The notes beneath the pieces are model-generated. The model saw only the letters and a program-made list of their open reading frames with translations. It had not been told where the DNA came from and did not search any database. Positions 39,701 to 60,230 of a stretch of 64,000 nt of DNA are shown in pieces (positions within the stretch are counted from its first letter, which is position 1; each line of letters begins with the position of its first letter). The DNA is taken from positions 62,001 to 126,000 of the forward strand of contig NCEM01000017.1 of the NCBI GenBank assembly GCA_002280725.1. Direction: 5' to 3'. Source of the stretch: Alphaproteobacteria bacterium 32-64-14 (GTDB lineage: Bacteria > Pseudomonadota > Alphaproteobacteria > Caulobacterales > Hyphomonadaceae). Made by a program: the position numbers and the translations under genes.

Positions 39701-41676
39701 CGTTCGACGTGCCGGCGTTCAATGGGCAGCTGCGCGTCATGGCGGTTGCGTGGTCGGACGCAGGCGTCGGATCGGCTGGCAAGGCCGTGACGGTGCGCGA
39801 TGCGGTGCCTGCGCTGATGGCGCTCCCGCGCTTCCTCGCGCCGGGCGACTCCGCAACGGCGACGCTGACCGTCGACAACGTTGAAGGACAGGCAGGCGCC
39901 TATGCCGCCGCGATCCAGGCGTCCGCGCCTGTACGCGCGTCGACCGGGCAGCTGACGGCCAACCTCCAGAAAGGCCAGCGTCAGGATCTCAGCGCGGCGT
40001 TCTCGGCTTCGGCAGAGGGCATCTCGACTGTGTCGTTCAACCTGACCGGTCCGGGCAACTATGCCGTCTCGCGCTCGTATCTGATCCAGACCCGTTCGGC
40101 CTGGATGCCGGCGAGCTATGTGGTGCGCACGACGCTGCAGCCGGGGGCGGCGTTCACGCCGGCCGCGGATTCGCTCGCCTCGTTCGTGCCGGGCTCGTCC
40201 TATGTGCAGGTGTCGTTCTCGCCCATTCCGATGGACGCGGCCGCCCTGTTCGAGTCGCTCGAGCAATACCCCTATGGCTGCACGGAACAGATCGTCAGCC
40301 GTGCGATGCCGCTTCTCTATGCGAAGTACGTCGCTGCGCTGGCCGGCCGGAAAACCCCGGCTGACCTGCAGGGCCAGATCCAGGAAGCTGTCTCGACGCT
40401 GCTGAACCGGCAGGGATCGGATGGCGCGATTGGCCTCTGGCGCACGGGTGACGGCCTCGCCAGCCCGTGGCTTGGCGCCTACGCGACGGACTTCCTGTTC
40501 CGCGCCAAGGCCGCCGGCTTCGTGGTTCCCGATGCGGCGCTCGACAAGGCGTATGACGCGCTCGAGGAGTTCGCGGTTCGCGAGGATCGCTACTCCTCCG
40601 GCTACGACTTCGACGTCTACGAAAGCCGCTGGCATTCGGACACGCAGAAGCAGTTGATGGATCGTTCGGTCGCCTATGCTGCCTATGTGCTGGCGAAAGC
40701 CGGCCGCATGGATCGTGCACGCCTGCGCTATCTGCACGATGACAAGCTGAAGGAAATTGGCAGCCCGCTGGCGCGCGCTCAGATTGGCGCCGCGCTCTAC
40801 ATGATCGGCGACAACGCCCGCGCCAAATCAGCCTTCGATCAGGCCGAAGCAGCGCTCGGCTACGTCAACACCGGCGACTACTACCAGACGACGCGCCGTG
40901 ATCTCGCTGGCGTTCTCGCCCTGGCGCAGGAAGCCAGGCAGACCGATCGCGTCAACAGGCTGTCCCAGCGTGTCGCGCAGGACATGCCCGAGCCGGACAG
41001 GCTGACGACGCAGGAGAAGGCCTTCCTTCTTCTCGCCGCCAATGCGCTGTCGGGCGGCCAGGCTGGCGTCAACGTGGCTGTCGGGGGGCAAGCCACGGCT
41101 GTGTCCACCGGCGTCTATCGCCTGAGCGGCGCCCAGATGGCCTCGCCCCCGTCCTTCACCAACCGCGGCTCCGGCCAGGTATGGGTGACGTCGGTCTCGC
41201 GCGGCTCGCCCGCGTCGGCCCCGCCGCCCGCCTATGACGGCATGGTTGCCTCCAAGCAGCTGTGGACGCCGGGCGGCGCGCCGATCAACGGCACGTCGTT
41301 CGCGCAGGGCGATCGCGTCATCATCGCGCTCTCGGTGGCCTCGTCCGAAATGCGGCGCACGCCGCTGATCGTGGCGGACCTGCTGCCGGCGGGCTTCGAG
41401 ATCGAAGCCGTGCTGCGTCCGGAAGATGCTGGGCCGTCGGGGGCTTACAGCTTCCTCGGCGATCTGGCGGCGCCGGATATCGCAGAGGCGCGCGACGATC
41501 GTTTCATCGCCTCGCTCGATCTCTATGACCAGCAGCGCGTGACGTTGGCCTACATGGTTCGCGTGGTGACGCCCGGCATGTTCACGATGCCCGGCGTCGT
41601 CGCCGAGCACATGTACAAGCCGGAAACCTTCGCGCGCACGGGTTCGCAGACGATCCAGGTATCGAAGCGGAACTGA
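36760..41676 (+). CDS. yfhM: Alpha-2-macroglobulin family lipoprotein (YfhM-like)
   Basis: 1638 residues, GTG start after AGGAGGGA. The lipobox LQAC puts the acylated cysteine at 28. The chain carries serial macroglobulin beta domains, the thioester motif GCTEQ (Cys1174) in YPYGCTEQIVSR, and a helical thioester domain after it. Family knowledge: such proteins trap attacking proteases in the periplasm and are coupled to PBP1C, which repairs the wall; E. coli has yfhM-pbpC in the same order. The stop overlaps the pbpC start by one base (TGATG). The thioester is intact. Confidence 0.93.
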   Translation: MGTNKVWRALKYAAATAIAATSLALQACGPSASDPNQATSVKGDDQGPQMATRQGNSPRSGGSGEFEFVRYTIDVAGDTPRACLAFSSTLSPTADYRPYVDMGDGPQIALSTDGANLCLGGLNFGADREIRIRSGLPSADGRSLAFDEGVTISFGDRPAYVGFKGDGVILPRIDADGLALETVNVEKVKVTISRITDRALAFKTITQGYSHSAGGWGYMDYNSEVYDVAEQLWTGEIDTPGSPNSATTTVFPIAKAVPRLQPGAYFVELDQINAGGDVPSEAARAKRWLVITDLAVTTYSGTDGMMATVRSLQSAKPVSGVKLELVARNNEVLARGDSDSSGRVSFSGPIMRGEGNVSPRMLMAYAPNGDFAILDLDRAAVDLTERDIGGRAPAQAADAFVYTERGVYRPGETVQISAIIRDAAAVSLSNRAGSVVVYGPNGLEAGRQRFKDTRALNGAVTYPFPVPKTAARGSWRIATEIDGVGVVGSESFAVEDFVPQRIELKLQADSTSPMRGDESRPITSDVRFYYGAPGADLPVEGNVRVEPDANPFPELKGFAFGRHDEQFRESTFDLATATTNAQGRAILTLDPRAADNVDSTRPLRLRSVISAIEPGGRAVRDDVRIAYRPEARYVGVKPAFEDRSSKEGESASFEVISVDRTGALKAAKINWRLVRIDWKYDWYREGGGAWQWRQSRRVVELETGQLNIAEGQRGSLKTRQLDYGDFELYLTEEANGGEASYGFWSGWGGQPQDGVEAPDRVRVQVPDKMPAVGQDVDVTIMPPYSGEAEIVVASENVITTRTITVEANKGANIKFPVTREWGAGVYIMATVYTPRDAVKTPKPRRAVGVSHVAVDVSARTFKLDIAAPEVQRPNAKMTINVTASGPQAGGFVQIVAVDEGILALTRHATPDPAAYFFGKRRLGVELRDDYGRLLDPNQGAAGNIRQGGDQIGGAGLTVVPTQSVVLTSAPVKLNGGKASVTFDVPAFNGQLRVMAVAWSDAGVGSAGKAVTVRDAVPALMALPRFLAPGDSATATLTVDNVEGQAGAYAAAIQASAPVRASTGQLTANLQKGQRQDLSAAFSASAEGISTVSFNLTGPGNYAVSRSYLIQTRSAWMPASYVVRTTLQPGAAFTPAADSLASFVPGSSYVQVSFSPIPMDAAALFESLEQYPYGCTEQIVSRAMPLLYAKYVAALAGRKTPADLQGQIQEAVSTLLNRQGSDGAIGLWRTGDGLASPWLGAYATDFLFRAKAAGFVVPDAALDKAYDALEEFAVREDRYSSGYDFDVYESRWHSDTQKQLMDRSVAYAAYVLAKAGRMDRARLRYLHDDKLKEIGSPLARAQIGAALYMIGDNARAKSAFDQAEAALGYVNTGDYYQTTRRDLAGVLALAQEARQTDRVNRLSQRVAQDMPEPDRLTTQEKAFLLLAANALSGGQAGVNVAVGGQATAVSTGVYRLSGAQMASPPSFTNRGSGQVWVTSVSRGSPASAPPPAYDGMVASKQLWTPGGAPINGTSFAQGDRVIIALSVASSEMRRTPLIVADLLPAGFEIEAVLRPEDAGPSGAYSFLGDLAAPDIAEARDDRFIASLDLYDQQRVTLAYMVRVVTPGMFTMPGVVAEHMYKPETFARTGSQTIQVSKRN

Positions 41677-43820
41677 TGCATGAGTTGCTGAAACGGGCTG
41701 CCAGCTTTCTTGGAAGGTTCAAACCTCCCGAGGGCTGGCGGTTTCGTTTCTGGTGGCCTGAAGAGTGGTGGCGCAAGGTCGCGCTGGTCGTGCTGTACAT
41801 CCTCGCGCCGCTGGTCGTGCTCGATTGGCTGCTGCCGCCGCCGATCTACAAGGGCGACATCGTCTCGGGTGTCGTCATGGACCGGCGCGGCGCCGTGATG
41901 CGCATCTTCCCGGTCGAGGACGGCAAGTGGCGCATGCGCGCGCACCTTGATGGAATCGACAGCGATTTCATCGATGCGCTGCTGGCCTACGAGGACAAGC
42001 GCTTCCGCGACCATGGCGGGGTGGATTTCCTCGCGCTGGCCCGGGCCGGCGGTTCGCTGGTATCGGCGGGCCAGATCGTGTCGGGAGGCTCGACCATCAC
42101 GATGCAGACGGCGCGCCTGCTCGAGCCGCGCTCACGCAATATCTTATCCAAGGTCATCGAGGTGTTCCGCGCCTGGCAGCTTGAACGGCGGCTGAGCAAG
42201 GACGAGATCCTCGAACTCTATCTCACGCTCGCCCCCTATGGGGGCAACCTTGAAGGCGTGCGCGCAGCCTCATGGGCCTATTTCGGACGGGAGCCGGATA
42301 ATCTCTCGCCAGACCAGATCGCCATGCTGATCGCACTGCCCCAATCGCCCGAGGCGCGCCGGCCCGACCTGCGCCCGCAGGCCGCCATCGTCGCGCGCGA
42401 GCGTGTGTTGATGCGTCTCGCCGTCGAAGGCGTCTTCGCCCCCGATCTTGCAAAAGAGTCAGCCGAATACCCCGCGCCCAAGCGCGGCAGCTTCCCGACG
42501 CTGGCTTGGCATGCGTCCGACGAGGCGCTGAAGCGCGCGCCATCGCCCGACAACATCCGCACCACGCTCGATCTCAATCTTCAGCGCGAGGTCGAGCAGA
42601 TCGCGCTGCGCGCCGCCGGTCCCACGCGCGATGGCGCGCAGGCGGCGGTGATGGTGGTGGACATCGCCACCCGCGAAGTGCGCGCGGCTGCGGGTTCCGC
42701 CAATCGCGCGTCGCTTGGCGGCTGGATCGATCTCACGGACCGGCCACGCTCACCTGGCTCCACACTGAAACCCTTCATCTACGGTCTGGCTTTCGACGAT
42801 GGCGTCGCTGCGCCCGACACGCGCATCTCGGACACGCCGCGCCGCTACGCGAGCTACCGGCCTGACAACTTCGACCGCACGTTTCGTGGCGATGTCACGG
42901 TCGCACAAGCGCTCCAACACTCGCTAAACGTACCTGCCGTGTCCGCGCTGGACGCAGTCGGCGCCCAACGCTTCGCCGCCGCGCTGGCGTTTGCCGGCGC
43001 CGATCTCTCCATGCCGTTGGCCGCAGATGATGAGGCTGGCCTTGCCATCGCGCTGGGCGGCACGGGCATGACGGTGCGCGATATTGCGCTGCTGTATGCG
43101 GCCCTCGGCGATGGCGGCCGCGCGCTGCCGCTGGTCTGGCTTGAGGACGAGCGCATCAAGGCGAAGGTGAGCAAGCCCGTCGCGACGCAGATCATGTCGG
43201 CGCAATCTGCGCTGCAGATTGTCGATATTCTCGCCGATGCGCCGGCGCCGGATGGACGCATGCCCGCGCTGCTGACGCAGGAAGCGCCGGTGATCGCGGC
43301 GAAGACCGGCACATCCTACGGCTTCCGCGATGCGTGGGCGGCGGCGACGGGCAATGGCTATGCCGTCGTCGTGTGGATCGGGCGCGCGGATTCCGGCCCG
43401 CGTCCGGGCGTCACGGGCCGCGATGCAGCGCTGCCGATCCTGTTCGACGTCTACGACGCGATTGGCCGCGTTCTGCCCGCGCGCACAACCGGGCCAAGCC
43501 TGCGCCAGGAAGCGCCGGGCGGCCACACGCCGCCATCCGCGCTGGCGCGGTTCGAGCGTGCGAATGCGCCGCCGCAGATATTTTTCCCGCCGGATGGCTC
43601 GGAAGTGTTCAAGGATGGCGAACACACATCCTTCGTGCTGTCGGCGCAAGGGCACGGAAAGCTCACCTGGTATGTCGATGGCAAGCCGCTGGCGCGCAAT
43701 GTCGCCGGCGATACGGTCTGGCGGCCCGGCGACACGGGCTTCTACGAAGTGAAAGTGGTCGACGACGCAGGCCGCACAACCAAGGCGCGTGTGCGCATCC
43801 TGTCGCCGGATGGAAACTAG
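41676..43820 (+). CDS. pbpC: Penicillin-binding protein 1C (bifunctional)
   Basis: 714 residues. An N-terminal cytoplasmic stub and membrane helix (VALVVLYILAPLVVLDWLL) are followed by a GT51 glycosyltransferase (AYEDKRFRDHGGVDF, Glu106, and GGSTITMQTARLLEP) and a transpeptidase with STLK (Ser362-Lys365), SLN and KTGTS. The C-terminal domain ends FYEVKVVDDAGRTTKA, the BiPBP_C type. It polymerises and crosslinks peptidoglycan. Coupled translation with the macroglobulin indicates a shared defence or repair function. Confidence 0.94.
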   Translation: MHELLKRAASFLGRFKPPEGWRFRFWWPEEWWRKVALVVLYILAPLVVLDWLLPPPIYKGDIVSGVVMDRRGAVMRIFPVEDGKWRMRAHLDGIDSDFIDALLAYEDKRFRDHGGVDFLALARAGGSLVSAGQIVSGGSTITMQTARLLEPRSRNILSKVIEVFRAWQLERRLSKDEILELYLTLAPYGGNLEGVRAASWAYFGREPDNLSPDQIAMLIALPQSPEARRPDLRPQAAIVARERVLMRLAVEGVFAPDLAKESAEYPAPKRGSFPTLAWHASDEALKRAPSPDNIRTTLDLNLQREVEQIALRAAGPTRDGAQAAVMVVDIATREVRAAAGSANRASLGGWIDLTDRPRSPGSTLKPFIYGLAFDDGVAAPDTRISDTPRRYASYRPDNFDRTFRGDVTVAQALQHSLNVPAVSALDAVGAQRFAAALAFAGADLSMPLAADDEAGLAIALGGTGMTVRDIALLYAALGDGGRALPLVWLEDERIKAKVSKPVATQIMSAQSALQIVDILADAPAPDGRMPALLTQEAPVIAAKTGTSYGFRDAWAAATGNGYAVVVWIGRADSGPRPGVTGRDAALPILFDVYDAIGRVLPARTTGPSLRQEAPGGHTPPSALARFERANAPPQIFFPPDGSEVFKDGEHTSFVLSAQGHGKLTWYVDGKPLARNVAGDTVWRPGDTGFYEVKVVDDAGRTTKARVRILSPDGN

Positions 43821-45173
43821 CTATCGCGTCAACGCGATGAAAGCGTCATTCCACGCCGTTGCTGCGCGGCCGCCAGCGATCAGGTCGTCAATCAGGTCGG
43901 CAGGCAGGCTGACGGCGGTTTCGGCTGAGCCAAGGCGCTCGGCCTTCGCCGCGCCCAGATCCGAGAACGACATCACGTCGAGCACAAAATCCACGTCCCC
44001 GCATGTCCAGTCCGGCCCGGCGCCCAGTTCCTTGGTTTCTTCCGGCGAGAGCCCGCAGCGCCATTTGATGACGCCGGCCTTCCAGTCTGTCAGATAGCCA
44101 TGCAGCGCATCGGCCGCGGCACGCTTGGGCGCATTCACGGCGATGCTCAGCGCGGTGGCGATCAACTCCGGGCCATCAGGTCCAGCCTGTTTCTTCGCCC
44201 ATGTTCCATCAGCCGGGCGTTCGGAATTGACGACCACAAATGTCAGGCGGCGCAGCTTCACCGCATCGCGCGGCGACATGGGCGCATAGGGCATTCCGCC
44301 CGCGGCCTGCAGCGTCACGAAGCTGGACACGCCGAAATTGTCGGCGACGCCGCCATCGGTGAGATGCAGGTAGGACATGCGCTCGGCATCGCGGAAGAAG
44401 CGGAAGGACCGCGCGGTTTCACGCAACAGCATGGGCGTGTTGCGCGCCGTCATCGCCTTGCTCACCCATGGCGGCAGGTCCACGGGGCATTTCTCGGGGA
44501 AGGATTGCACGACAACCGGCCGGAAGGCGATCGGAACCGACATCGATGCGGCCACGGCGTCGGCGATGCGCACTGTGCTGAGGTCGCTGCAGATCGCCTC
44601 GAACCAGGGCGGCGCAAACGCGAACGGCGCGCCGCTGTAGAGGTCAGCTGCGTTGATGACCACGTAAGGGCGCGTGTGCATGTCCCGCATGCGCCCGCCC
44701 GCGAAGATTTCCTTGTCGAGCCAGTTCGCCAGTTTGTCCGGTCCGTTGAGGCCGCCCTGCATCAGCCGCTGCCAGTTTTCTGGTGAGACCCAGGTCGTAT
44801 GCAGCTGCCCCTGCCAGTCGAGGTCGAGCGCCGCCTTGCGGAATCCATCAAGCCCCTCGGGCCCGTGCTGGCCATAATAGGCCGCCGTGATCGATCCGCC
44901 GGAGACCGCGGTGATGAACGCGACGCGGTCGAGTAGGGAGACGCCCTTGCTGTCCTTCATCTCGCGCAGCTGCAACAGCACGCCATAGGAAAAGGACGCC
45001 GCCCGCGCCCCGCCGCCGGAAAACGCAAGCGCGATAGCCTCGCCATCAACGCCGAGATCGTGGACCACCTGCGGGGGTGCAGACGTCAGGGCATGATTGA
45101 TCGGCGTCGTGTCGGGCGCGCTCACGCACGCGGAAGCGGCCAGTCCCAATGCCGCGATCATCGCATGGCGCAT
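43821..45173 (-). CDS. Patatin-like phospholipase lipoprotein
   Basis: 450 residues from the ATG at 45173 after GGGAGGG. The lipobox-like ASAC gives Cys16. Patatin signatures: oxyanion FSGGGARAAS, nucleophile region TAVSGGSITAAY, and DGGVADNFG with the dyad Asp. No second domain. It is expected in the periplasm or on the outer membrane as a phospholipase A. Back-to-back with pbpC (stop codons adjacent) and 70 bases from pgi on its own strand. Confidence 0.83.
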   Translation of the reverse strand: MRHAMIAALGLAASACVSAPDTTPINHALTSAPPQVVHDLGVDGEAIALAFSGGGARAASFSYGVLLQLREMKDSKGVSLLDRVAFITAVSGGSITAAYYGQHGPEGLDGFRKAALDLDWQGQLHTTWVSPENWQRLMQGGLNGPDKLANWLDKEIFAGGRMRDMHTRPYVVINAADLYSGAPFAFAPPWFEAICSDLSTVRIADAVAASMSVPIAFRPVVVQSFPEKCPVDLPPWVSKAMTARNTPMLLRETARSFRFFRDAERMSYLHLTDGGVADNFGVSSFVTLQAAGGMPYAPMSPRDAVKLRRLTFVVVNSERPADGTWAKKQAGPDGPELIATALSIAVNAPKRAAADALHGYLTDWKAGVIKWRCGLSPEETKELGAGPDWTCGDVDFVLDVMSFSDLGAAKAERLGSAETAVSLPADLIDDLIAGGRAATAWNDAFIALTR

Positions 45174-45243
45174 CAACGTCCCTCCCGAACGGTCTACAAC
45201 TTTCGGCGGAACGGGTCGCGATGTCCAGACACGTGATGCGCGA

Positions 45244-46830
45244 CTAGCCCCGCGTGCGGGCGCGCGCCACAAGCCGGAGCGTCGAGGGATCACGCTTGCC
45301 CGGGTCTTCGCCCGCGATTGCCTTGTCGAGCTGCTCGGCGAGAACCTTGCCAAGCTCGACACCCCACTGATCGAACGGGTTGATCCCCCAGAGAATTCCA
45401 GCCGCAAAGGTGCGATGCTCATAAAGGGCGATCAGCGCGCCAACGCTTTCCGGCGAGAGATCGTCGAGCAGGAGGGTGGTGGAGCCGCGATCGCCAGACA
45501 TGTGCATGTGCGCGGACTGCGCCTTGGCCTTGGCCGGGTCCATGCCTTTGGCGAGCAGCTCCTTCTCGGCAGCCGACTCCGAGCGGCCCGCAAGCAGGCC
45601 CTCGGCCTGTGCGAAAGCGTTGGAGAGCAGGGCGCGGCCACGGGCCTTGTCGCCGGCGCCGACATCAAGAGCGGCGACGAACTCGACCGAGCTCTCGCGC
45701 GTACCCTGGTGCAGCAACTGGTGGAAAGAGTGCTGGCCGAGCGTGCCGACCGAGCCCCACACGATCGGGGCGGTAGTGGACAAGCGGCCGCCAGGACGAT
45801 CGGCGGCATTCTTGCCGTTCGACTCCATCTCGAGCTGCTGCAGGAAGTCCGGCAGCCTGCGCAGACGATGCGCATAGGCGAGCACAACGCGGCTAGGCAC
45901 TTCGGCGGCGGTGTGGACATAGACGTCCATCATCGCGAGGCGCGCGGGCGTGTTGTGATCGAGCGGCGTATCGCGGAAGTGCACGTCCATCTCGGCCGCG
46001 CCCTTCAGAAAGCGCGACCAGACATCGGCGCCCAACGCGATCTGCAGGGACAGCCCTACCGACGACCAGACCGAGTAGCGGCCACCGACGGCTTCATCCA
46101 TCGGGAAAATGCGATCGTCAGCTGCGCCCCAGGCCCTGGCCTTGTCAGGCGCGGAGGACACAGCAGCGAGGTGGTTGTTCGCTTCGGCTTCGCCAAGCTT
46201 GCTCACAAGCCACTCGCGCGCCAGCGCAGCGTTGGACGCGGTCTCCGGCGTCTTGAAGGATTTGGACACGACCAGCACCAGCGTGGTCTTCGCGTCGAGC
46301 CCTGCCGTCTGCTCCGCAAAGTCTTCCGGGTCGACGTTGGCGACAAAACGGATTTGCGGGTCGTCCGAGAAATAGTCGCGCAGCGCATCCCAGATCAGGC
46401 GCGGACCAAGGTCCGAGCCGCCGATGCCGATGTGCAGGATCGTCTTCACCGGAAAACCGAGCCCGCCGGAGGAAGCCTTGCGGGCGAACGCCGCCGCCTT
46501 CTCGGCCTCGCGATACATCGCGTCGGCTGCGGGAATGCCCTTGCCATTGCCGCGCAGCGCCCAGTGCAGGGCGGGGCGGTTCTCGGAGGCGTTCACAATC
46601 TCGCCCGCGAACAGCGACTTGATCCTGCCCGACAGGTTCCGCTCGGTAGCAACCGCTTGCATGGCGTCCATCACGCCTTCGTCGATGATCTGCTTTGCGA
46701 CATCCGCCTCGAGATGGGGCGCCTTCCAGATGAACGCTTCGAGATTGGCGCGGGCGGCGGTGTAGCGAAGGTTCTTCTCGCCGAGACGCGCATATTCGGC
46801 TTCAACACGTTTCCAGCTGGCCAGCGTCAT
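45244..46830 (-). CDS. pgi: Glucose-6-phosphate isomerase
   Basis: 528 residues from the ATG at 46830. Both Pgi signatures are present (GGRYSVWSSVGLSLQIALG near 265 and the C-terminal region with FDQWGVELGK). It interconverts glucose-6-P and fructose-6-P, linking the nearby amino-sugar pathway, whose end product is fructose-6-P, to central metabolism. Length and motifs match the classical bacterial enzyme. A further in-frame start upstream lacks support. Confidence 0.95.
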   Translation of the reverse strand: MTLASWKRVEAEYARLGEKNLRYTAARANLEAFIWKAPHLEADVAKQIIDEGVMDAMQAVATERNLSGRIKSLFAGEIVNASENRPALHWALRGNGKGIPAADAMYREAEKAAAFARKASSGGLGFPVKTILHIGIGGSDLGPRLIWDALRDYFSDDPQIRFVANVDPEDFAEQTAGLDAKTTLVLVVSKSFKTPETASNAALAREWLVSKLGEAEANNHLAAVSSAPDKARAWGAADDRIFPMDEAVGGRYSVWSSVGLSLQIALGADVWSRFLKGAAEMDVHFRDTPLDHNTPARLAMMDVYVHTAAEVPSRVVLAYAHRLRRLPDFLQQLEMESNGKNAADRPGGRLSTTAPIVWGSVGTLGQHSFHQLLHQGTRESSVEFVAALDVGAGDKARGRALLSNAFAQAEGLLAGRSESAAEKELLAKGMDPAKAKAQSAHMHMSGDRGSTTLLLDDLSPESVGALIALYEHRTFAAGILWGINPFDQWGVELGKVLAEQLDKAIAGEDPGKRDPSTLRLVARARTRG

Positions 46831-46941
46831 TTTGCTGTATTCCCTAACGGCAAGAGTTGGGCGAGGTCTCGCCAGAATTGATGCAACCTGCGAGCCCGAC
46901 AATGGGTCATGCTGGTTAATGTAGTTGGGATTCTGGACGTG

Positions 46942-47409
46942 ATGCGCACGGGTTATGTGATTTCAGCTGTTGTGGCTTGTGCTGCCCTGCTGGCGGCATG
47001 CGGCGGCGAGTCCACGCCTGTGCCTGAGGCGCCTGTCGCGGCCGTTCCCGCGCCCACGGTGGAGCAGTTGCCGGCGCCATATAACGAGGCCAGCCTCGAA
47101 GCCGGGCAGGCCGCCTTCGGAAAGAAGTGCGCGGGCTGTCATTTCACCGACCGCGCAAAGGGCGACATGGTCGGTCCCAACCTGCACGGCATGTTCGAGC
47201 GCGGCCCCGGACATTCGCGCACCTACAAATCCTACTCGCCCGCGTTGAAGGATCTTGGTGGCGACGTCTGGGATCCTGCCGTGCTCGATCAGTGGCTGAC
47301 CAATCCGCGCGCCTTCCTGCCGGGCAGCTCGATGTTCTTCAACGGTATCGCCGATGCGGCCGAACGGCGCGACCTGATCGCGTTCCTGATGGTCCAGTCG
47401 CGCAAATAG
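46942..47409 (+). CDS. Lipoprotein c-type cytochrome
   Basis: 155 residues (ATG at 46942; an alternative lies 11 codons upstream). The lipobox LAAC gives Cys20. A Pro/Ala/Val-rich spacer leads to a class I cytochrome c domain with CAGCH (Cys63-Cys66-His67), VGPNLHGMFER, and the sixth-ligand region PGSSMFFNGI with its Met. It is an electron carrier tethered in the periplasm, resembling mitochondrial-type cytochrome c. Divergent from pgi. Confidence 0.87.
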   Translation: MRTGYVISAVVACAALLAACGGESTPVPEAPVAAVPAPTVEQLPAPYNEASLEAGQAAFGKKCAGCHFTDRAKGDMVGPNLHGMFERGPGHSRTYKSYSPALKDLGGDVWDPAVLDQWLTNPRAFLPGSSMFFNGIADAAERRDLIAFLMVQSRK

Positions 47410-47412
47410 CGC

Positions 47413-48285
47413 TCAGCCGCCCGCCAGCTTCCGCTTGGCGAGAATGATCCCGCCGGCCATCGCATCGCCCGCCGGAGCGACGATATCCGGTTGGATATGG
47501 TCTGGCAGCCACGCGCGCATCACATCGGCAAGCCCGCCAACAAGCGCAACCTTCGGCGCGCCCTTCTTCACGAGGGCTGCGGCAAGGTCTGCGATCTGGG
47601 ATGCGGCCTGTTTCATCAGCGCCGTTGCCCCGGCATCGCCTGCTGCGGCGTGATGGACGACCATCGGCGCAAGCGTCGCGTAATCCGTGGAGCTGGCGCG
47701 ATCCATCCAGTCCACGATCTCCACGGGATCATGCGAGAATTTGGCAAGCACCTCTTCCGTGAACGGCGTGGGCGAGACACGTCCATCCAGCGTGCGCAGC
47801 GCCGTGCGCAGGGCGTTGAGGCCGATGTCTGCGCCGCTGCCTTCGTCTGACACCGGAAAGCCATAGCCGCCAACGCGCAAAGTCTGTCCGCGCCAAGTGA
47901 TGCCGATACTGCCCGTGCCGCACACAACGATGCCGCCATCGCCGCCCGCAAACGCGCCAAGCAGCGCCATATAGCCATCGCCCTCAAAGCAGGCTGAGGC
48001 AAAGGGGTGCTCCCAGTTGTCCAGTGCGCGGCGCGCCCCGCGCGTGCCGGTTCCCGCGAGTCCGATGCCAGCGTGGATGCGCGGGTAGGCAGCCTCGCCG
48101 AGGCCGGATTCCCGCACGGCCTGCTGCGCGGCCGTTATGATGGAATAGAACGCGGCCGCGAATCCAAAGCGCATGCTGGCCGGGCCTGAGCGCCCCTGGC
48201 CCAGCACCTTGCCATCGGCTGTTTCCAGCCGGGCGCGGCAGCCCGTGCCGCCGCCATCGACGCCGAGGAACAGCGGGTCAGCCAT
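47413..48285 (-). CDS. BadF/BcrA-type amino-sugar kinase (GlcNAc/MurNAc/GlcN kinase)
   Basis: 290 residues with GVDGGGTGCRARL at the N-terminus, VVCGTGSIGITW and SDEGSGADIGLNALRTALR, the ATPase fold of NagK/GspK/MurK kinases. It phosphorylates an amino sugar at C6. Clostridial MurK in this family accepts MurNAc and GlcNAc. Divergent from murQ with a 63-base gap and near NamZ, so MurNAc is a reasonable substrate here; glucosamine or GlcNAc remain possible. Confidence 0.85.
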   Translation of the reverse strand: MADPLFLGVDGGGTGCRARLETADGKVLGQGRSGPASMRFGFAAAFYSIITAAQQAVRESGLGEAAYPRIHAGIGLAGTGTRGARRALDNWEHPFASACFEGDGYMALLGAFAGGDGGIVVCGTGSIGITWRGQTLRVGGYGFPVSDEGSGADIGLNALRTALRTLDGRVSPTPFTEEVLAKFSHDPVEIVDWMDRASSTDYATLAPMVVHHAAAGDAGATALMKQAASQIADLAAALVKKGAPKVALVGGLADVMRAWLPDHIQPDIVAPAGDAMAGGIILAKRKLAGG

Positions 48286-48348
48286 ATGTCCTGTCTAATG
48301 CGATTTGCCCGCCTTTCAATTGAGCCGCGCAGCGATAAGGATTGGGCC

Positions 48349-49263
48349 ATGGCGAACGAACACCCCAGAACCGAAGGCAAGACGGAAGATTGGGACCCCG
48401 CCTTCGCGGAACTTGATCAGTGGGACACCGCGACGGCCCTGCAGAATCTGCATGCGAGCCAGATGGCGGCGGTTGCGGCGGTCGGGCCTGCCTTGCCCGA
48501 ACTGACAAAGGCGGTGGATGCAGCCGCCGGCCGGCTCCGGCGGGGCGGCCGGCTGATCTATGCGGGCGCCGGCACATCGGCGCGCATTGCCGTTCAGGAC
48601 GGGGCGGAATTGCTCCCCACATTCGGTTGGCCCGCTGCGCGCGTGGCGTTCGTTGTCGCCGGCGGCGAAGAAGCGCTGCTGCGCCCGGTCGAGAATGCCG
48701 AGGACGGTCATCAGGCTGCACGGGACCGCGTGACTGAGCTGGGTGTCGGCGCCAACGATGTCATGATCGCCGTAGCCGCCAGCGGGGAGACGCCTTTCAC
48801 GATCAGCGCCTTGCGCGCTGCGGGTGCTGTAGGCGCTCTGACCATTGGCGTGGCCTCCAACGCAAGATCTACAATTCTCAATGAAGCAGACCACGCCATA
48901 ACGCTGCAGACAGGCGCCGAGCCAGTTTCTGGCTCGACGCGCATGAAGGCTGGCACGGCGCAGAAGGTGGCGCTGAACCTTCTCTCCACCATGATCATGG
49001 TGCGCATGGGCCGGGTCTATCGCGGCCGGATGGTCGACATGATCGCGACCAACGACAAGCTGCGAAAGCGCGCCGTGCGCATGGTCGCCGCACTTGATGA
49101 CTGCTCCGAGGCAGAAGCCGCGAAAGCGCTTGAGGCGGCGGGTGGCGATCTCAAGGCCGCTGTGTTGGTTCGGCATGGGCACGATGTGACCGCAGCAAAA
49201 GCCCTGCTGGCGAAGCATGACGGCAATCTGCGCGCGGCCATCGCGGAGCTTGAAAGCCGCTAG
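48349..49263 (+). CDS. murQ: N-acetylmuramic acid 6-phosphate etherase
   Basis: 304 residues from the ATG at 48349 after AAGGA. SIS fold with GRLIYAGAGTSARIAVQDGAEL (split over 65-87), FVVAGGEEALLRPVENAED carrying the catalytic glutamate, and EPVSGSTRMKAGTAQK. A C-terminal UBA-like helical segment follows. It removes D-lactate from MurNAc-6-P to give GlcNAc-6-P. The convergent nagA overlaps its stop by four bases. Confidence 0.95.
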   Translation: MANEHPRTEGKTEDWDPAFAELDQWDTATALQNLHASQMAAVAAVGPALPELTKAVDAAAGRLRRGGRLIYAGAGTSARIAVQDGAELLPTFGWPAARVAFVVAGGEEALLRPVENAEDGHQAARDRVTELGVGANDVMIAVAASGETPFTISALRAAGAVGALTIGVASNARSTILNEADHAITLQTGAEPVSGSTRMKAGTAQKVALNLLSTMIMVRMGRVYRGRMVDMIATNDKLRKRAVRMVAALDDCSEAEAAKALEAAGGDLKAAVLVRHGHDVTAAKALLAKHDGNLRAAIAELESR

Positions 49264-50375
49264 CTCAGGCGCTTTCCCGCGATCCAGACGCCTTGCGCCT
49301 TGAAGTGCGAATCCAGCAGCACGAAGTCCGCCCGCGCGCCGGAGGCGATCCGTCCGCGATCGTCGACACCCAGAAATTCAGCCGGCGTGCGTGTCGCCAT
49401 GCGAAGGGCCTCGGCCTCGCTCGCCCACATCATAGCCAGTGCATTGCGGACCGCGCCGGACATATCCAGATGCGCGCCTGCCAGCGTGCCGGAGGGAGTC
49501 CGCAGCGCCCCTTCGGAGAGGCTCACCTTTTCGCCGAACAGTTCCATGTCCGCCCCGCCGCCAACCGTCGCCATGGCGTCGGAGACAAGCATCATCCGCC
49601 GCGCGGTCTTCGCGCGAAACGCTGCGCGCGCCGACACCGGATGCACATGGATGCCGTCCAGGATCAGCCCCGTGAACGCCTCGGTGTGGGCGAGCGCGAC
49701 GCCCACCGGGCCGGGATTGCGCGACTCCATCGTCGGCATGGCGTTGAACAGATGCGTAAAGCCGGAAGCGCCCGCAGCCAGCGCTTCCTCAACCCGTTCG
49801 GTCGTTGCTGCTGTGTGACCAAGGCACACGCGCACGCCTTCACCGGCCAGCGTCCTGATATCATCGGGCGACACCCGTTCGGGCGCCACCGTAACCATCA
49901 GCGGAAAGCCGCGCCGCGCGGTGAGCATGATGAGGTCGACCTCATCCAGCGGGCGCAGGTTGGCGGCCGGGTGCACGCCGCGACGCGGCTCAGAAAGCCA
50001 CGGGCCTTCAAGATGCAGACCAATCAACCCATCCACGCCCACCGCGAATGCGCCCGACACCGCATCAAGCGCCGCTGCGGTTTTCTCGCGACTGTCGCTT
50101 ATCAACGTCGCCATAATCCCCGTGACGCCAAACGCCTGGTGCGCCGCCGTGATCGTGCGCAGGGCGTCAACCGTAGGAGCGTCATTGAAAAGCACGCCAC
50201 CGCCGCCATTCACCTGAACGTCGATGAAGCCCGGCGCCAGCAGGCCGTCGATCCGAATGCCGTCAGCGGGCGCCGTATCCAGAACCGCGCTGATGCGGCC
50301 GTCTTCAACCACCACGGCTGCGCCGGTGCGAAGCGTCTCGCCGTCGAACAGTCGTGTCGGAGCTAGGACAGTCAT
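49260..50375 (-). CDS. nagA: N-acetylglucosamine-6-phosphate deacetylase
   Basis: 371 residues. Amidohydrolase fold: GFIDVQVNGGGGV, the metal-binding HLEGPWLSEPRRGVH, LGHTAATTE, and LVSDAMATVGG with the catalytic aspartate. It converts GlcNAc-6-P to GlcN-6-P and acetate, the step after MurQ. Its start is one base after the stop of the SIS deaminase (TGAGATG), so the two are translationally coupled. Confidence 0.95.
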   Translation of the reverse strand: MTVLAPTRLFDGETLRTGAAVVVEDGRISAVLDTAPADGIRIDGLLAPGFIDVQVNGGGGVLFNDAPTVDALRTITAAHQAFGVTGIMATLISDSREKTAAALDAVSGAFAVGVDGLIGLHLEGPWLSEPRRGVHPAANLRPLDEVDLIMLTARRGFPLMVTVAPERVSPDDIRTLAGEGVRVCLGHTAATTERVEEALAAGASGFTHLFNAMPTMESRNPGPVGVALAHTEAFTGLILDGIHVHPVSARAAFRAKTARRMMLVSDAMATVGGGADMELFGEKVSLSEGALRTPSGTLAGAHLDMSGAVRNALAMMWASEAEALRMATRTPAEFLGVDDRGRIASGARADFVLLDSHFKAQGVWIAGKRLS

Positions 50376-50376
50376 C

Positions 50377-51384
50377 TCAGCGTGTCTCGGTGACTTTGCG
50401 CAGACGCGGCGGCTGGTCCGGCGAGCGCCCGCGCTGCAGCGTCGTGGCGTTGGCCAGAAGATAGAAGCGCGTCAGCAGACCAATCAGCTCCATCGCAGGC
50501 TGCGTCTCGTTCGGCGGCCACGCGACCAGCATGGCGCGGCTGCCGGCCTCCTCGAAGGCCTCGGCAATCTTATCCAGCCCTTCGCGCGCTGCATCGCGCT
50601 GGGCAAAAATCAGCACGCGCAGGTTGGGCCCCGCCAGTGCAAACGGGCCGTGCAGCACTTCGGCGGAGCTGTAAGCCTGCGCAAACACCCCAGCCGTTTC
50701 CTTGAGCTTGAGCGCCGCCTCCTTGGCGATCGCAAGTCCCGGTCCGCGGCCAATCGTGTAGAGCGGCGCATCGCCCGTCATGAAGTCACTCGCGCCCGGC
50801 CACTCAAGCGCCAGCGCACGCCCTAGCACGTCGGGCGAACCTTCAAAGGCGGCGATCATCTCCCTGTCGTTGCGCCAGTGAGCCACCAGCCCGAAGCACA
50901 AAAGCATGGCGGCCAGGCACGACTTGGTGGCCGCAACGCTCTTCTCGGGTCCGGCCTCCAGCGGCAGGGCAAGGTCCACCGCGCCTTCAAGGTTCGAGCC
51001 CGCCACATTGATCATGCCGACGCGCAGCGCGCCCTGGCCGCCTGCGGCGCGGCAGTAACCCACCAGATCGGGGCTCTGCCCGGATTGCGAGATGGCCACC
51101 ACCAACGACTCACGCAGATCCAGCGTGCCCCCATAGATCGAACTCAGCGAGGGCGTCGCTGATGCAGTCACAATCCCCAGATGCTGCTCGAACAGGTATT
51201 TCGCGAACAGGGATGCCGCTCCGGAACTGCCCCGTCCTGCGGTGATCGCAAAGCGTGGCGGGCTGGCGCGCAGGCGGGCGCCGAGCTCCGCCAGCGGCTT
51301 AGACGCGCGTTCAATCAGGCGCGCGGCCACATCCGGCGCCTCGCGCGTTTCAGCTTCCATATGGGTGAGCGCCGGGCCGGTCAT
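50377..51384 (-). CDS. SIS-type glucosamine-6-phosphate deaminase (NagB-II)
   Basis: 335 residues from the ATG at 51384. Two SIS domains: FAITAGRGSSGAASLFAKYL, VVAISQSGQSPDLVGY, then YTIGRGPGLAIAKEAALKLKE and SSAEVLHGPFALAG. It lacks the glutaminase domain of GlmS, and the length and motifs fit NagB-II deaminases (described in Shewanella), which turn GlcN-6-P into fructose-6-P and ammonia. Coupled to nagA. Confidence 0.88.
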   Translation of the reverse strand: MTGPALTHMEAETREAPDVAARLIERASKPLAELGARLRASPPRFAITAGRGSSGAASLFAKYLFEQHLGIVTASATPSLSSIYGGTLDLRESLVVAISQSGQSPDLVGYCRAAGGQGALRVGMINVAGSNLEGAVDLALPLEAGPEKSVAATKSCLAAMLLCFGLVAHWRNDREMIAAFEGSPDVLGRALALEWPGASDFMTGDAPLYTIGRGPGLAIAKEAALKLKETAGVFAQAYSSAEVLHGPFALAGPNLRVLIFAQRDAAREGLDKIAEAFEEAGSRAMLVAWPPNETQPAMELIGLLTRFYLLANATTLQRGRSPDQPPRLRKVTETR

Positions 51385-51472
51385 GCCTGCTAGATATGGA
51401 CCAGTCCGGGCAGGCTTACAAACACCCGCGCCACGGCTGGCGAGGGCCGGATACGCACGATAAAACGGCGGC

Positions 51473-52027
51473 ATGCGCCAGAGCCTGCGGCCCCATCCTG
51501 ATTCGCGTTGTGACACCGTAAGAGCGATTCAGGTCGAGGCCGCGCGCCATCCGGGCGGCGTGTTGCGGCTCGACTATGTCGCCAGCGGAAGGATTGCCGA
51601 CCTTCTGGTTCCGCCGCCTGCGCCGCCGCAACGGGCAGACAAGCTGTGGGAACACACCGTCTTTGAGGTGTTCGTGCGCCGGCCGGGTGAGCCCGGCTAT
51701 GTCGAGTTCAACTTCGCGCCCTCCGGCGCCTGGGCGGCCTACCGCTTCACCAGCCAGCGGCGCGGCATGTCGAATCTGGAGGAATTCCAGGACATGCCGA
51801 TAACGCTCGATGCTGGCATGAGCAGCCTGTCGCTGGCCGTGAAGCTCGATCTCGGCGTTCTGCCTGATTTTGCTGGTGATACGCCGTGGAGCATCGGCAT
51901 TTCGACCATCATCGAGGAAAGCAATGGCCGGAAGTCGTACTGGGCGTTAGCGCATCCGCAAGGAAAGGCGGATTTCCATCACCCCGACAGTTTTGCGCTG
52001 GACCTTCCTCCCGTGGGTGCATCATGA
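51473..52027 (+). CDS. DOMON-like domain protein
   Basis: 184 residues without a signal peptide. Beta-rich sequence with LWEHTVFEVFVRRPGEPGYVEFNF and YRFTSQRRGMSNLEEF fits the DOMON-like family found in alphaproteobacteria, a sugar- or haem-binding type of fold. Function unknown. The ATGA overlap with the NamZ homologue ties it to that enzyme; it is divergent from the deaminase gene. Confidence 0.75.
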   Translation: MRQSLRPHPDSRCDTVRAIQVEAARHPGGVLRLDYVASGRIADLLVPPPAPPQRADKLWEHTVFEVFVRRPGEPGYVEFNFAPSGAWAAYRFTSQRRGMSNLEEFQDMPITLDAGMSSLSLAVKLDLGVLPDFAGDTPWSIGISTIIEESNGRKSYWALAHPQGKADFHHPDSFALDLPPVGAS

Positions 52028-53235
52028 AATTTGGCATCGACCGCCTTATCGCCGACCCGGCGCTGCGCGCGCAGCTGAAGGGCAGGCGCGTGTCGCTGGT
52101 GGCGCACCCGGCCTCCGTCACTGCCGACCTCACGCACTCCCTTGATGCGCTGGCGGCGTGCGGCGACATCAAGCTGACGTCCGCTTTCGGCCCGCAGCAC
52201 GGCATGCGCGGCGACAAGCAGGACAACATGGTCGAAAGCCCGGACTTCAACGATCCGGTGCACGGCATTCCGGTGTTCAGTCTCTATGGCGAAAGCCGCC
52301 GCCCCACGGGCCAGATGATGAGCACGTGCGATGTCGTGCTGGTGGACCTGCAGGATCTCGGCTGCCGCATCTACACGTTCATCACCACGCTGCTCTACGT
52401 TCTGGAAGAGGCGGCGAAAGTCGGCCAGTCCGTTTGGGTGCTCGATCGGCCCAATCCGGTCGGCAGGCCGATCGAGGGGCTCACGCTGCGTGCGAGCTAT
52501 GAAAGCTTCGTCGGCGCGGGTCCCATGCCGATGCGCCACGGCCTCACGCTCGGCGAACTCGGTCAGTGGTTCATCGACCACTACAAGCTCAACGTCGACT
52601 ATCGCGTCATCGAGATGGTAGGATACGATCCCAACGCTGCGCCCGGCTATGGCTGGCCAATTGGTGAGCGAACCTGGGTGAACCCCAGCCCCAACGCGCC
52701 GAACCTCTGGATGGCGCGCGCGTATGCGGGAACCGTCATGCTGGAAGGCGCAACCCTGTCCGAAGGCCGCGGCACAACCCGCCCGCTCGAACTGTTCGGC
52801 GCCCCGGATATCGACGCCCGCGCTGTGATGGCGGAAATGCAGCGCTTCGCGCCGCAATGGCTGAAGGGCTGCATCCTGCGCGAATGCTGGTTTGAGCCGA
52901 CCTTCCACAAGCATGTGAAACAGCTGTGCCATGGCGTGCAGATTCACACGGAAGCGCCCGCGCACTACGATCATGAAGCGTTCAAGCCGTGGCGCGTGCA
53001 GGCGCTCGCCTTCAAGGCCATCCGCACGCTCTATCCGGAGTATCCGCTCTGGCGCGGACTGGATTTCAAATACGAGTACACCGCAGGCCACCTCGCCATC
53101 GACGTCATCAACGGCTCGGTCTTGCTGCGCGAATGGGTGGACGGCGCAAACACTTCCGCAGACGATCTCGATGCCCTGACCGTGCCCGACGAGACTGCCT
53201 GGGAAGAGGCCCGGCGGCCATACTTGCGCTACTGA
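52024..53235 (+). CDS. namZ: DUF1343 / exo-beta-N-acetylmuramidase NamZ homologue, without signal peptide
   Basis: 403 residues. DUF1343 landmarks: RVSLVAHPASVT, FGPQHGMRGDKQDNM, VDLQDLGCRIYTFITTL, WVLDRPNPVGRPIEG and YAGTVMLEGATLSEGRGTTRP. Family knowledge: B. subtilis NamZ releases MurNAc from the non-reducing end of glycans and is secreted. Here the start MKFGIDRLIADPAL has no hydrophobic leader, so a cytoplasmic enzyme is indicated. Coupled to the DOMON-like gene (ATGA). It probably supplies MurNAc to the kinase and MurQ nearby. Confidence 0.85.
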   Translation: MKFGIDRLIADPALRAQLKGRRVSLVAHPASVTADLTHSLDALAACGDIKLTSAFGPQHGMRGDKQDNMVESPDFNDPVHGIPVFSLYGESRRPTGQMMSTCDVVLVDLQDLGCRIYTFITTLLYVLEEAAKVGQSVWVLDRPNPVGRPIEGLTLRASYESFVGAGPMPMRHGLTLGELGQWFIDHYKLNVDYRVIEMVGYDPNAAPGYGWPIGERTWVNPSPNAPNLWMARAYAGTVMLEGATLSEGRGTTRPLELFGAPDIDARAVMAEMQRFAPQWLKGCILRECWFEPTFHKHVKQLCHGVQIHTEAPAHYDHEAFKPWRVQALAFKAIRTLYPEYPLWRGLDFKYEYTAGHLAIDVINGSVLLREWVDGANTSADDLDALTVPDETAWEEARRPYLRY

Positions 53236-57279: not shown

Positions 57280-57840
57280 ATGGAAGGTGAGCCCAAGACA
57301 GCTCAGCTCCTGGCGGAATGGCGTGGCGGCGCGGTCGATGCGCGCAACGTCCTCATTGCGCGGCTGCACCCTGAATTGAGCGTCATCGCCGCCGCCCGCC
57401 TGCGAGCCGAGCGCGGCACGTCGCTATCGACCGGCGATCTGATCAATGAATCGGTGATGCGCATCGCCCAGGCCGATGGCCTCTCGATCGGGGATCGCAC
57501 GCACATGCTGGCGCTGGCGTCCCGCGTGATGCGTAACATCCTGGTGGACCACGCCCGCCAGAAGTCAGCGGGAAAACGCCAGCATCACAAGGTCGAGCTG
57601 ACAACGCAGGTGGATGGCGGGCAGCGCTTTGATCTGATGTCGCTTGATTCCGCGCTTATCAGGTTGAAGGTGCTCGATTCCCAACTCGCGGAGCTTGTGG
57701 AGATGAGATATTTTGGGGGAATGACGGTTGAGGATGTCGCGGCAGTGACAGGCCTTTCCGAGCCCACGGTGAAGCGCCGCTGGCAGGTGGCGCGTTCGTG
57801 GCTGCTGGATGCGCTCCAGAACTCGATCGATCAGGAATGA
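57280..57840 (+). CDS. ECF-type RNA polymerase sigma factor
   Basis: 186 residues. Region 2 (THMLALASRVMRNILVDHAR) and region 4 (LVEMRYFGGMTVEDVAAVTG followed by SEPTVKRRWQVARSWL) match the TIGR02999-type ECF group, which lacks a classic anti-sigma factor. Its stop overlaps the start of a Ser/Thr kinase (ATGA), the arrangement of kinase-controlled ECF factors such as EcfK-PknS of Xanthomonas. Phosphorylation control is inference. Confidence 0.88.
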   Translation: MEGEPKTAQLLAEWRGGAVDARNVLIARLHPELSVIAAARLRAERGTSLSTGDLINESVMRIAQADGLSIGDRTHMLALASRVMRNILVDHARQKSAGKRQHHKVELTTQVDGGQRFDLMSLDSALIRLKVLDSQLAELVEMRYFGGMTVEDVAAVTGLSEPTVKRRWQVARSWLLDALQNSIDQE

Positions 57841-60230
57841 CCGGGATCTCGCTTGAACGCGAGGCGCTGGCGCTTTTCGAGGATTTCCTTGAGGCGGAGC
57901 CGGCCGACGCGGAAGTCTGGCTGGCTGAACGCACGGGCGTGCGCGCCGACCTGCTGGCCCGTGTGCGCACGTTCATCGCCGCGGAGCAGGTCGTCACGAT
58001 GCGCACGGGCGGCGCCGTGTCGTCCATGGCGGCCGAGCCGCCCGCGCCGCAGCGTCTCGCCGGCTATGTGATCACCGAACGGATCGGCTCTGGCGGCATG
58101 GGCTCGGTCTATCTCGCGCGGCGCGATCGCGGCGACTTCGATCACATCGCAGCCGTGAAGATCATCCGGCCCGGCCTCCTGTCAGAGCGGCTGGTGGAAC
58201 GCTTCCGGCGCGAGCGTCAGATCCTCGCCCAGCTGCGCCATCCCAACATCGCGCAGCTGTTCGATGGAGGCTCCACCGAGGATGGCTCGCCCTACATCAT
58301 CATGGAGTACGTCGAAGGCCGCCCGCTGCTGACCTGGGCGGAAGAGACAAAGGCCACCCGCGAACAGCGCATCGACATGCTGCTGCAGGCGTGCACGGCT
58401 GTGGCCTTCGCCCACGCCAACCTGATCGTCCATCGCGACATCACGCCGTCCAACGTGATGGTGACCAATGGCAGCGTCGCCAAGCTGATCGACTTCGGCA
58501 TCGCGCGCCCGAAAGGCGCGGGCGACGAGCCCTCGCGCGCAACTAACGGCTCCGGCTCGCTGCACACGCTGAGCCTGACGCCCGGCTACGCTGCGCCCGA
58601 GCGCATGACAGGCGCCGAGCCCACCACGGTCGCCGACGTCTACTCGCTGGGCAAGCTGACGCAGAAACTGCTGGACGATCATCTGGCCGACAAGGAACTG
58701 GTCGCGATCATCGCCAGGGCAACGGCAAACGCGCCGGAAGAGCGTTATGCGTCGGTCGATCTATTTTCCGCCGATCTGAAAGCGCTGCGTGATGGTCACC
58801 CGGTAACGGCGTTCAAGGGCGGGCGAGGCTATGCTTTTGGCAAGTTCATCGCGCGTCATCGCGTGGCGACATGGGCGACAGGCCTGGGCGCGGCCTTGCT
58901 CGCAGCAGCCTTCGCCGCAACTGCGATTGCGTGGGTTGGCGCCGAGTCGGCGCGCGCGGCTGAGGCGCGGCGGTTCGAGGACGTGCGCGCGCTCGCCAAC
59001 TACCTTCTGTTCGACCTCAACGACAAATTGCGGGTCGTGCCCGGTAATACACAGGCGAGATTCGAGTTGGCCGCAAAGGCGCAGGGTTACCTCGACTCTC
59101 TCGCGCGTACGCCGGGCGCCAGCCGCTCGCTGAGCTTCGAGACCGCGAAGGGGTTCGTGCGGCTCGCGGAGATCCAGGATTCCCCGCTCGACCGAAATCT
59201 GGGCCAGACAACAGAAGCTCAGAAGAATCTCGAGCAGGCGCGCACCATCCTCGCAAGCCTCCGCGCGACGTACGGGGATGGCCCCGACAGTCTCATCCTG
59301 GAGGCGCATATCGAGGCGATCGGCGGCCTGATCGCGTTGTATGAAGATGCCGACGCAGACAAGGCGCTGGATCTCATCAAGCGTGGCCAGGCAGCGCTGG
59401 AGCGGGTTCCGGTAGCGGACAGGCAGCGGGACTGGCGATGGACGGAGGTCGATCTGTCCCGCGCGGAGACGGAATACTATTCGGTGAACGAGCGGCCGCA
59501 GGAGGCCCTCGACGCGGCCCTGCGCCACGCTGCGCTCGTGGAGGGCTGGCCGGCCGATGAACGCGCGACCGTAAGGGCGGAGAGCGAGCGTGCGTGGGCG
59601 ATGTACAATCACGGGCTCGCCCTCTCGGAAATCGACAGGGAGCCTGAAGGCTTCGAGATCCTCCGGGCGTCTCACGACAAGTTTGCAGCAGCGGAAAAGC
59701 AGGAGCCTAACAGCCCGGAACTGCTGTACATGATCGGATGGGCCGGCGCCGAAGCTTATGCGGTTGCGGCGCGGATCGATCGCGCTGCCGAAATGGAATA
59801 TCTGCTGCTGAGCGCACAGGATGCGGCAGAGCGACTGGTCGAGATCGAGGATCGCGATCAGTCTGCAGCCGTCCTGCGTTTCGCTGTTGGCGAAACCTAT
59901 TCCCAGCACCTTGGAAATCTTGGCCGCTTCGACGAAGCGATCGCCGAACAGCAGAAGCTGGTCGATATGCGTGTGGCTGAGCTCGACGAGACAAGCTCTG
60001 GAGCAAGCGCTGGCTGGAGCGAGATGATCCTGGGCCAGATCGCGCGGCAGGCCGAGCGGCGTGAATTGGCGTGCAAGTCCTACAAGGGCGCCAATACAAG
60101 GTTCATCAAGGCGGACGGCATGGGGCGCCTCATCGAATTCCAGCGGTCTTTCATGCCGGGCCTCAAGCGGTTCGTTGAGATGTGCGACAGCGGCGTGCCG
60201 CTTGCGGACTTCGGCCGGCTGAGGCCATAA
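57837..60230 (+). CDS. Membrane Ser/Thr protein kinase with TPR-like C-terminal half
   Basis: 797 residues. A helical N-terminal part (1-70), then a Hanks kinase domain about 76-325: GSGGMGSVYLARR, Lys108, HRDITPSN (Asp201) and DFG (Asp219). A membrane helix near 343-365 (LGAALLAAAFAATAIAWV) is followed by a long helical, probably TPR-like, periplasmic or sensory part. Thr203 occupies the position of the usual lysine in HRDLKPxN. The start overlaps the sigma gene; the kinase probably activates it by phosphorylation. Confidence 0.9.
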   Translation: MTGISLEREALALFEDFLEAEPADAEVWLAERTGVRADLLARVRTFIAAEQVVTMRTGGAVSSMAAEPPAPQRLAGYVITERIGSGGMGSVYLARRDRGDFDHIAAVKIIRPGLLSERLVERFRRERQILAQLRHPNIAQLFDGGSTEDGSPYIIMEYVEGRPLLTWAEETKATREQRIDMLLQACTAVAFAHANLIVHRDITPSNVMVTNGSVAKLIDFGIARPKGAGDEPSRATNGSGSLHTLSLTPGYAAPERMTGAEPTTVADVYSLGKLTQKLLDDHLADKELVAIIARATANAPEERYASVDLFSADLKALRDGHPVTAFKGGRGYAFGKFIARHRVATWATGLGAALLAAAFAATAIAWVGAESARAAEARRFEDVRALANYLLFDLNDKLRVVPGNTQARFELAAKAQGYLDSLARTPGASRSLSFETAKGFVRLAEIQDSPLDRNLGQTTEAQKNLEQARTILASLRATYGDGPDSLILEAHIEAIGGLIALYEDADADKALDLIKRGQAALERVPVADRQRDWRWTEVDLSRAETEYYSVNERPQEALDAALRHAALVEGWPADERATVRAESERAWAMYNHGLALSEIDREPEGFEILRASHDKFAAAEKQEPNSPELLYMIGWAGAEAYAVAARIDRAAEMEYLLLSAQDAAERLVEIEDRDQSAAVLRFAVGETYSQHLGNLGRFDEAIAEQQKLVDMRVAELDETSSGASAGWSEMILGQIARQAERRELACKSYKGANTRFIKADGMGRLIEFQRSFMPGLKRFVEMCDSGVPLADFGRLRP

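Follow-up and report, generated by a model that had tools for sequence, protein, structure and literature searches.

In the window analysed here, a 64,000-nucleotide stretch of contig 31 from an alphaproteobacterial genome (3.86 Mb, 95.5% complete), we have identified two units of different history: a kinase-murQ-nagA-nagB-II block and a cassette encoding a DOMON-like protein and a NamZ-like protein. The leaderless NamZ and its putatively sugar-binding partner form a widespread cytoplasmic pair, which looks like an unrecognised replacement of the cell-wall recycling kinase AnmK, to our knowledge the only enzyme described for the re-use of anhydro-N-acetylmuramic acid (anhydroMurNAc), itself a hallmark product of lytic transglycosylases. 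We tentatively propose, at slightly below an even chance, a new ATP-independent anhydroMurNAc hydrolase, made of a NamZ with the motif PQHG and a partner of the CBM9 fold, that would have taken the place of AnmK more than once across Proteobacteria, in many cases at one and the same chromosomal slot, and would feed either MurU salvage or MurK/MurQ catabolism. The genes, the NamZ clade, its complementarity with AnmK, their shared locus, AmpG and NagZ were observed directly, and the fold of the partner is predicted.

The comparative evidence for a functional exchange with AnmK is strong. Among 398 genomes of the order, each at least 90% complete, the NamZ_N domain was found in 143 and AnmK in 286; 254 genomes carried AnmK only, 111 NamZ only, 32 both and a single one (G231) neither, where about 103 with both would be expected. 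The two states were seen within each of the genera g3, g4, g11, g19, g21, g24 and g49, and a stratified test within eight genera, in which unsampled NamZ-only genomes were counted as PQHG, found both in 7 genomes where 29.6 were expected (z = -11). In the genus of the window, AnmK is found in none of 15 genomes and NamZ in 14 of them. All 40 of the NamZ-only genomes sampled encode a leaderless PQHG protein, accompanied by DOMON in 37. As for the 32 dual genomes, 17 of them (g12, g13, g34, g42 and g44) hold 26 NamZ places with secreted-looking proteins and no DOMON; none is PQHG, the motif being PEHG or VEHG except in two where it is not readable; 14 (family f5 and G172) carry PQHG with DOMON, and G123, with a weak NamZ match, was left out of the locus reading. 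Two smaller genomes (L233 in G342 and L235 in G350) encode a PQHG NamZ without DOMON and have no detectable AmpG or AnmK.

In 8 of the 9 AnmK loci read, all from AnmK-only genomes, anmK adjoins tyrS, and several of these loci lie between suf/iscR genes and a tyrS-bcp-M23-bactofilin run. Within these genera or adjacent ones, NamZ-only genomes (G152, G391, G320, G335, G012, G035 and G189) have DOMON-NamZ near tyrS in this same setting, and of the 80 relatives described below, 34 have tyrS at most 3 kb from NamZ. In one of the 80 (L077, 6690-11200), tyrS, anmK, DOMON and NamZ stand in a row, an arrangement that may be transitional between the two systems. The pair is thus present at the anmK slot and nearly confined to genomes without AnmK, which points to its being a replacement of AnmK; the window's own cassette lies outside the tyrS slot, though its genus is without AnmK. 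With AnmK (PF03702), the cassette shares the phyletic slot, the tyrS-adjacent locus and probably the pathway step, yet NamZ belongs to an unrelated protein family and its expected product is free N-acetylmuramic acid (MurNAc) rather than MurNAc-6-phosphate (MurNAc-6-P), with no use of ATP.

DOMON-NamZ is an old conserved cassette, found in alpha-, beta- and gammaproteobacteria. Relatives of the window's NamZ were read in the best 80 of 582 matching genome stretches (73-84% identity), which come from these three classes. No N-terminal signal was seen at the conserved NamZ start in any of the 80, and the window protein has no N-terminal hydrophobic stretch from the same start (ATG 52024), so that the first-pass annotation was right in calling it leaderless. 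It was also right on translational coupling, as this ATG and the stop codon of the DOMON-like gene share 4 nucleotides (ATGA) and the overlap recurs in relatives; in fact, a DOMON gene lies upstream on the same strand in 79 of the 80, mostly with the 4-nucleotide overlap or a few bases apart. No transporter is conserved beside the pair in these relatives, DOMON alone recurring in nearly all, and the clade mostly occurs without MurQ nearby. The statement that known NamZ proteins are secreted is true of the characterised enzymes but not of the family, since leaderless homologues are common, as the 80 best relatives show, and occur also on Paenibacillus and haloarchaeal plasmids. On one Paenibacillus plasmid (L143, 1456-3557), a BadF-family kinase gene comes after a NamZ with PEHG and no leader; this NamZ is of a second, independent cytosolic kind. 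A second NamZ was met in one member of the genus (L124, G101:C103), a secreted or lipoprotein-like fusion of 799 residues with an ordinary PEHG motif, whose N-terminal region resembles a serine hydrolase.

The partner of NamZ matches no Pfam or PHROG family. Its AlphaFold2 model (pLDDT 96) is nearest to a putative carbohydrate-binding protein (4jpq, Z 16.4) and to the CBM9 structures 7nwn (Z 14.0) and 1i82 (Z 13.4), followed by the gamma subunit of ethylbenzene dehydrogenase (2ivf, Z 10.6); these four stand well above the rest, and the low-scoring nanobodies and fluorescent proteins of the same search were not accepted as relatives. The model thus gives the protein a CBM9-type beta-sandwich, for which sugar binding is predicted. 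It shares this fold with CBM9/DOMON sugar- and haem-binding domains, but differs from them in being a stand-alone, cytoplasmic protein.

The NamZ-like protein itself is not an ordinary member of its family. NamZ_N and NamZ_C are both above cut-off, and it keeps the two-domain architecture of the characterised GH171/DUF1343 enzymes (B. subtilis YbbC, T. forsythia NamZ1 and NamZ2) with the motifs DxxDxQDxGxRxYT, DRPNP, PSPN and E...SxGRGT. However, the glutamate of PEHG, invariant in the family, is replaced by glutamine (Q58) in 93 of 93 clade members, while all 9 other homologues keep it, as do the structures 4k05 and 4jja; the DUF1343/NamZ proteins that share it are archaeal, actinobacterial, deinococcal, bacillal, bacteroidotal and proteobacterial. 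This glutamate may correspond to Glu92 of B. subtilis NamZ, for which a catalytic role is proposed, an equivalence that serves as a lead only. Clade-wide changes at otherwise conserved sites are N28H, E58Q, A67D, G68N, F116I, L233A and P235A, the first four of them correlated, and the remaining conserved acidic residues are retained. In a tree made by a quick method with a midpoint root and some long outgroup rows, the PQHG proteins form one side of a single branch with support 100 and a stem of 2.7 changes per site. The leaderless state, the motif, the changes N28H, A67D, G68N and F116I, the coupling to DOMON and the long stem set the clade apart from characterised NamZ. A literature search on the NamZ active site, DUF1343 and DOMON-NamZ returned nothing on the PQHG clade, the founding NamZ papers lying outside its coverage.

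The genome of the window encodes one AmpG above the curated cut-off, outside the window's block, so that the idea of an organism without an importer was rejected and the AmpG-type entry route suggested earlier found its candidate; moreover, one enzyme of glycoside hydrolase family 3, in a SPOR/scpAB/tat neighbourhood, is taken as NagZ. AmpG is present in 395 of the 398 genomes and in 109 of the 111 NamZ-only ones. Since AmpG is retained, anhydro-muropeptides are presumably still imported and anhydroMurNAc would still need disposal. AnmK was not found in the window's genome; MurNAc-6-P for MurQ would therefore have to be made from free MurNAc by a kinase (a MurNAc phosphotransferase system was not searched for). 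The gene tsaE was not found in the window's own metagenome-assembled genome, a probable assembly gap, and the relatives G091, G094 and G092 were read instead; in G091 and G094, which have the same block, genes for an APH-family kinase and then a nucleotidyltransferase come after tsaE, and the two are taken as AmgK-MurU. C. crescentus recycles anhydroMurNAc via AnmK and the MurU pathway, without MurQ (PMC13046382). The window's genome resembles this system (AmpG, NagZ, AnmK, AmgK, MurU; PMC13046382) in AmpG and NagZ, and its relatives in tsaE-amgK-murU, but AnmK is missing, DOMON-NamZ stands instead and a MurQ catabolic branch is added.

We favour a scheme for which the reaction, the substrate and the use of MurNAc by the kinase are inferred. 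AmpG would import GlcNAc-anhydroMurNAc peptides (GlcNAc, N-acetylglucosamine), from which NagZ and amidases would free anhydroMurNAc. The NamZ-like enzyme derives from exo-muramidases, in which the sugar held at the cleavage site is MurNAc. Assisted by its CBM9-fold partner, it would break the internal 1,6-anhydro bond and so produce free MurNAc with no need of ATP. In most relatives, AmgK and MurU would carry MurNAc on to UDP-MurNAc. In the lineage of the window, the BadF-type kinase of the acquired block would make MurNAc-6-P (and GlcNAc-6-phosphate), MurQ would convert the former to GlcNAc-6-phosphate, and NagA with NagB-II would yield fructose-6-phosphate. An enzyme giving free MurNAc would thus serve both the AmgK/MurU route and the block. 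That DOMON-NamZ takes over the job of AnmK in this way, as an anhydroMurNAc hydrolase, we rate as close to evenly balanced. If this is true, many alpha-, beta- and gammaproteobacteria whose recycling pathway seems incomplete do possess a full one, and how they are linked to fosfomycin tolerance and the beta-lactam response becomes testable; a very widespread, unnamed gene pair would have a function, and a glycosidase family would provide a clean case of losing an invariant carboxylate and gaining a new reaction.

Several observations weigh against this proposal. The loss of the invariant glutamate may have left the glycosidase inactive. The sampled genomes share ancestry, and the counts, made without a species tree, are not independent events; in genus g14 of family f5 AnmK and NamZ occur independently, without avoidance (6 genomes with both, 1 with neither), hence the two genes are not strictly interchangeable there. 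A gammaproteobacterial locus (L075), next to tyrS, has a PQHG NamZ without DOMON beside a TonB receptor, a sodium symporter, a kinase, NagA, NagB-II, GntR and MurQ; this connects the clade with the use of MurNAc, but would equally suit ordinary use of imported MurNAc-GlcNAc or other MurNAc-containing sugars.

The same locus, together with the membership of the NamZ family and the Paenibacillus PEHG protein adjoining a BadF kinase, speaks for the first alternative, which takes up the reading of the first-pass annotation and in which a cytosolic exo-beta-N-acetylmuramidase cuts imported or internal MurNAc-GlcNAc, both sugars pass through the kinase, MurQ, NagA and NagB-II, and AnmK becomes dispensable. 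We consider this unlikely, yet the most serious of the alternatives. The invariant glutamate is gone from the whole clade, and the non-reducing end of AmpG substrates is a GlcNAc and not a MurNAc; nor would such an enzyme account for nearly every genome having AnmK or a PQHG NamZ while AmpG stays. Alternatively, the complementarity could be a by-product of descent and of linked replacement at tyrS, DOMON-NamZ being unrelated to AnmK and acting, for example, in muropeptide sensing or binding. The over-representation of related genomes, the independence in g14 and the possible catalytic loss would fit this, but both states occur within at least seven genera, only one genome has neither, and cassettes outside the tyrS locus, including that of the window, also accompany the absence of AnmK; we regard it as improbable. 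Least probable of all is a cytosolic phosphorylase, or an enzyme of some other MurNAc conjugate, in which phosphate or an acceptor replaces the lost carboxylate to give MurNAc-1-phosphate for MurU or another product: the conserved fold with correlated changes, the cytoplasmic location and the MurU-like protein of relatives agree with it, but it would not supply the MurNAc-6-P which the window's MurQ block needs.

The four-gene block has its own history and is a patchily distributed, probably mobile catabolic module. In two close relatives of the locus (L002 and L003) the block is absent and the cytochrome c gene is directly followed by DOMON-NamZ and CoxM, the left side of L003 (alpha-2-macroglobulin, PbpC, patatin, pgi) being that of the window. 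A search of 105 genomes of the family gave true MurQ in 8 only, all from the window's genus (15 genomes), while the 90 genomes outside it had none, weaker matches being other SIS proteins and excluded from the count. The seven other carriers have the block in the same gene order and directions (its kinase end is cut off in L121); it adjoins DOMON-NamZ only in G091 and G094, and in the remaining five it lies at other sites, with proteins 54-64% identical. Elsewhere in the genus (L120, 2051-8570; L121, 3601-6486) the block can sit beside a TonB-dependent receptor, and its neighbours in L120 also include a major facilitator superfamily transporter, an ALO-type FAD oxidase and a D-threonine-aldolase-like gene.

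Features of the window from pgi to the NamZ-like gene, with profile matches and remarks
Feature	Position	Strand	Evidence and remarks
pgi	45244..46902	-	PRK00179 548 bits; flanking conserved neighbour, outside inserted block
Cytochrome c lipoprotein-like gene	46909..47409	+	PF00034; left border of inserted block
BadF/BcrAD-family amino-sugar kinase (NagK/MurK-like)	47413..48285	-	PF01869 3e-35
MurQ, MurNAc-6-P etherase	48286..49263	+	PRK05441 350 bits, cut-off 168; start more likely ATG 48352
NagA, GlcNAc-6-phosphate deacetylase	49260..50375	-	TIGR00221 252 bits, cut-off 226
NagB-II type glucosamine-6-phosphate deaminase	50377..51516	-	NagB_SO3506 272 bits, below cut-off 430; likely start nearer 51384
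DOMON-like (CBM9-fold) protein, 184 aa, leaderless	51473..52027	+	First cassette gene
NamZ-like protein (PQHG clade), 403 aa, leaderless	52024..53235	+	NamZ_N 3.5e-70, NamZ_C 2.8e-43

Profile searches agree with the gene identities first assigned at these positions (PGI, BcrAD_BadFG kinase, MurQ-type SIS, NagA, NagB-II-type SIS, NamZ_N with NamZ_C), and no phosphotransferase system, permease or regulator was found in or beside the block. The first-pass annotation had also read an unbroken cytosolic route from MurNAc to fructose-6-phosphate as a little-described recycling variant. The gene content holds and the route is supported, with AmpG and NagZ found and AnmK absent, but what is unusual is the PQHG NamZ with its CBM9-fold partner, the candidate AnmK replacement, beside an acquired MurQ block. 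NamZ belongs to the divergent clade normally paired with DOMON and is not an ordinary NamZ that merely lacks its leader within a MurQ operon. The genes pgi and cytochrome c are old neighbours, which remain in L003 where the block is missing. A single operon was rejected, as four transcription units were seen: the kinase to the left, murQ to the right, nagB-II-nagA to the left and DOMON-NamZ to the right.

The kinase and the deaminase are closest to the Shewanella NagK and NagB-II models, both below the model cut-offs; the kinase scores 248 bits with NagK_SO3507 (NCBIfam, cut-off 370), and NagB_SO3506 matches the deaminase only from residue 51 onward. Matches of the kinase in the PDB are 1zc6 and 8zo3, the latter a MurNAc/GlcNAc kinase. 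In T. forsythia MurK, the small residues S133, P134 and L135 give room to the lactyl group; the window's kinase has F-P-V before its SDEGSG motif and no bulky glutamate or histidine, residues from which specificity is not readable. MurQ also exceeds the cut-off of PRK12570 and is slightly under that of the equivalog TIGR00274 (276 against 302 bits). The block resembles T. forsythia MurT-MurQ-MurK and C. acetobutylicum MurK in joining a BadF-type kinase to MurQ for the conversion of MurNAc to GlcNAc-6-phosphate, but it has no MurT-like permease, AmpG import being proposed instead, and its kinase is nearer to the Shewanella-type NagK.

Elsewhere in the window, a bacterial alpha-2-macroglobulin gene directly precedes one for a PbpC-type class A penicillin-binding protein with a BiPBP_C domain (36760-43820), the classical yfhM-pbpC pairing. 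A patatin-like phospholipase gene (43821-45422) stays next to pgi in relatives of the genus. Finally, at 57280-60230, an extracytoplasmic function (ECF) sigma factor gene overlaps a serine/threonine kinase gene, the C-terminal half of whose product (about residues 300-810) gave no Pfam match.

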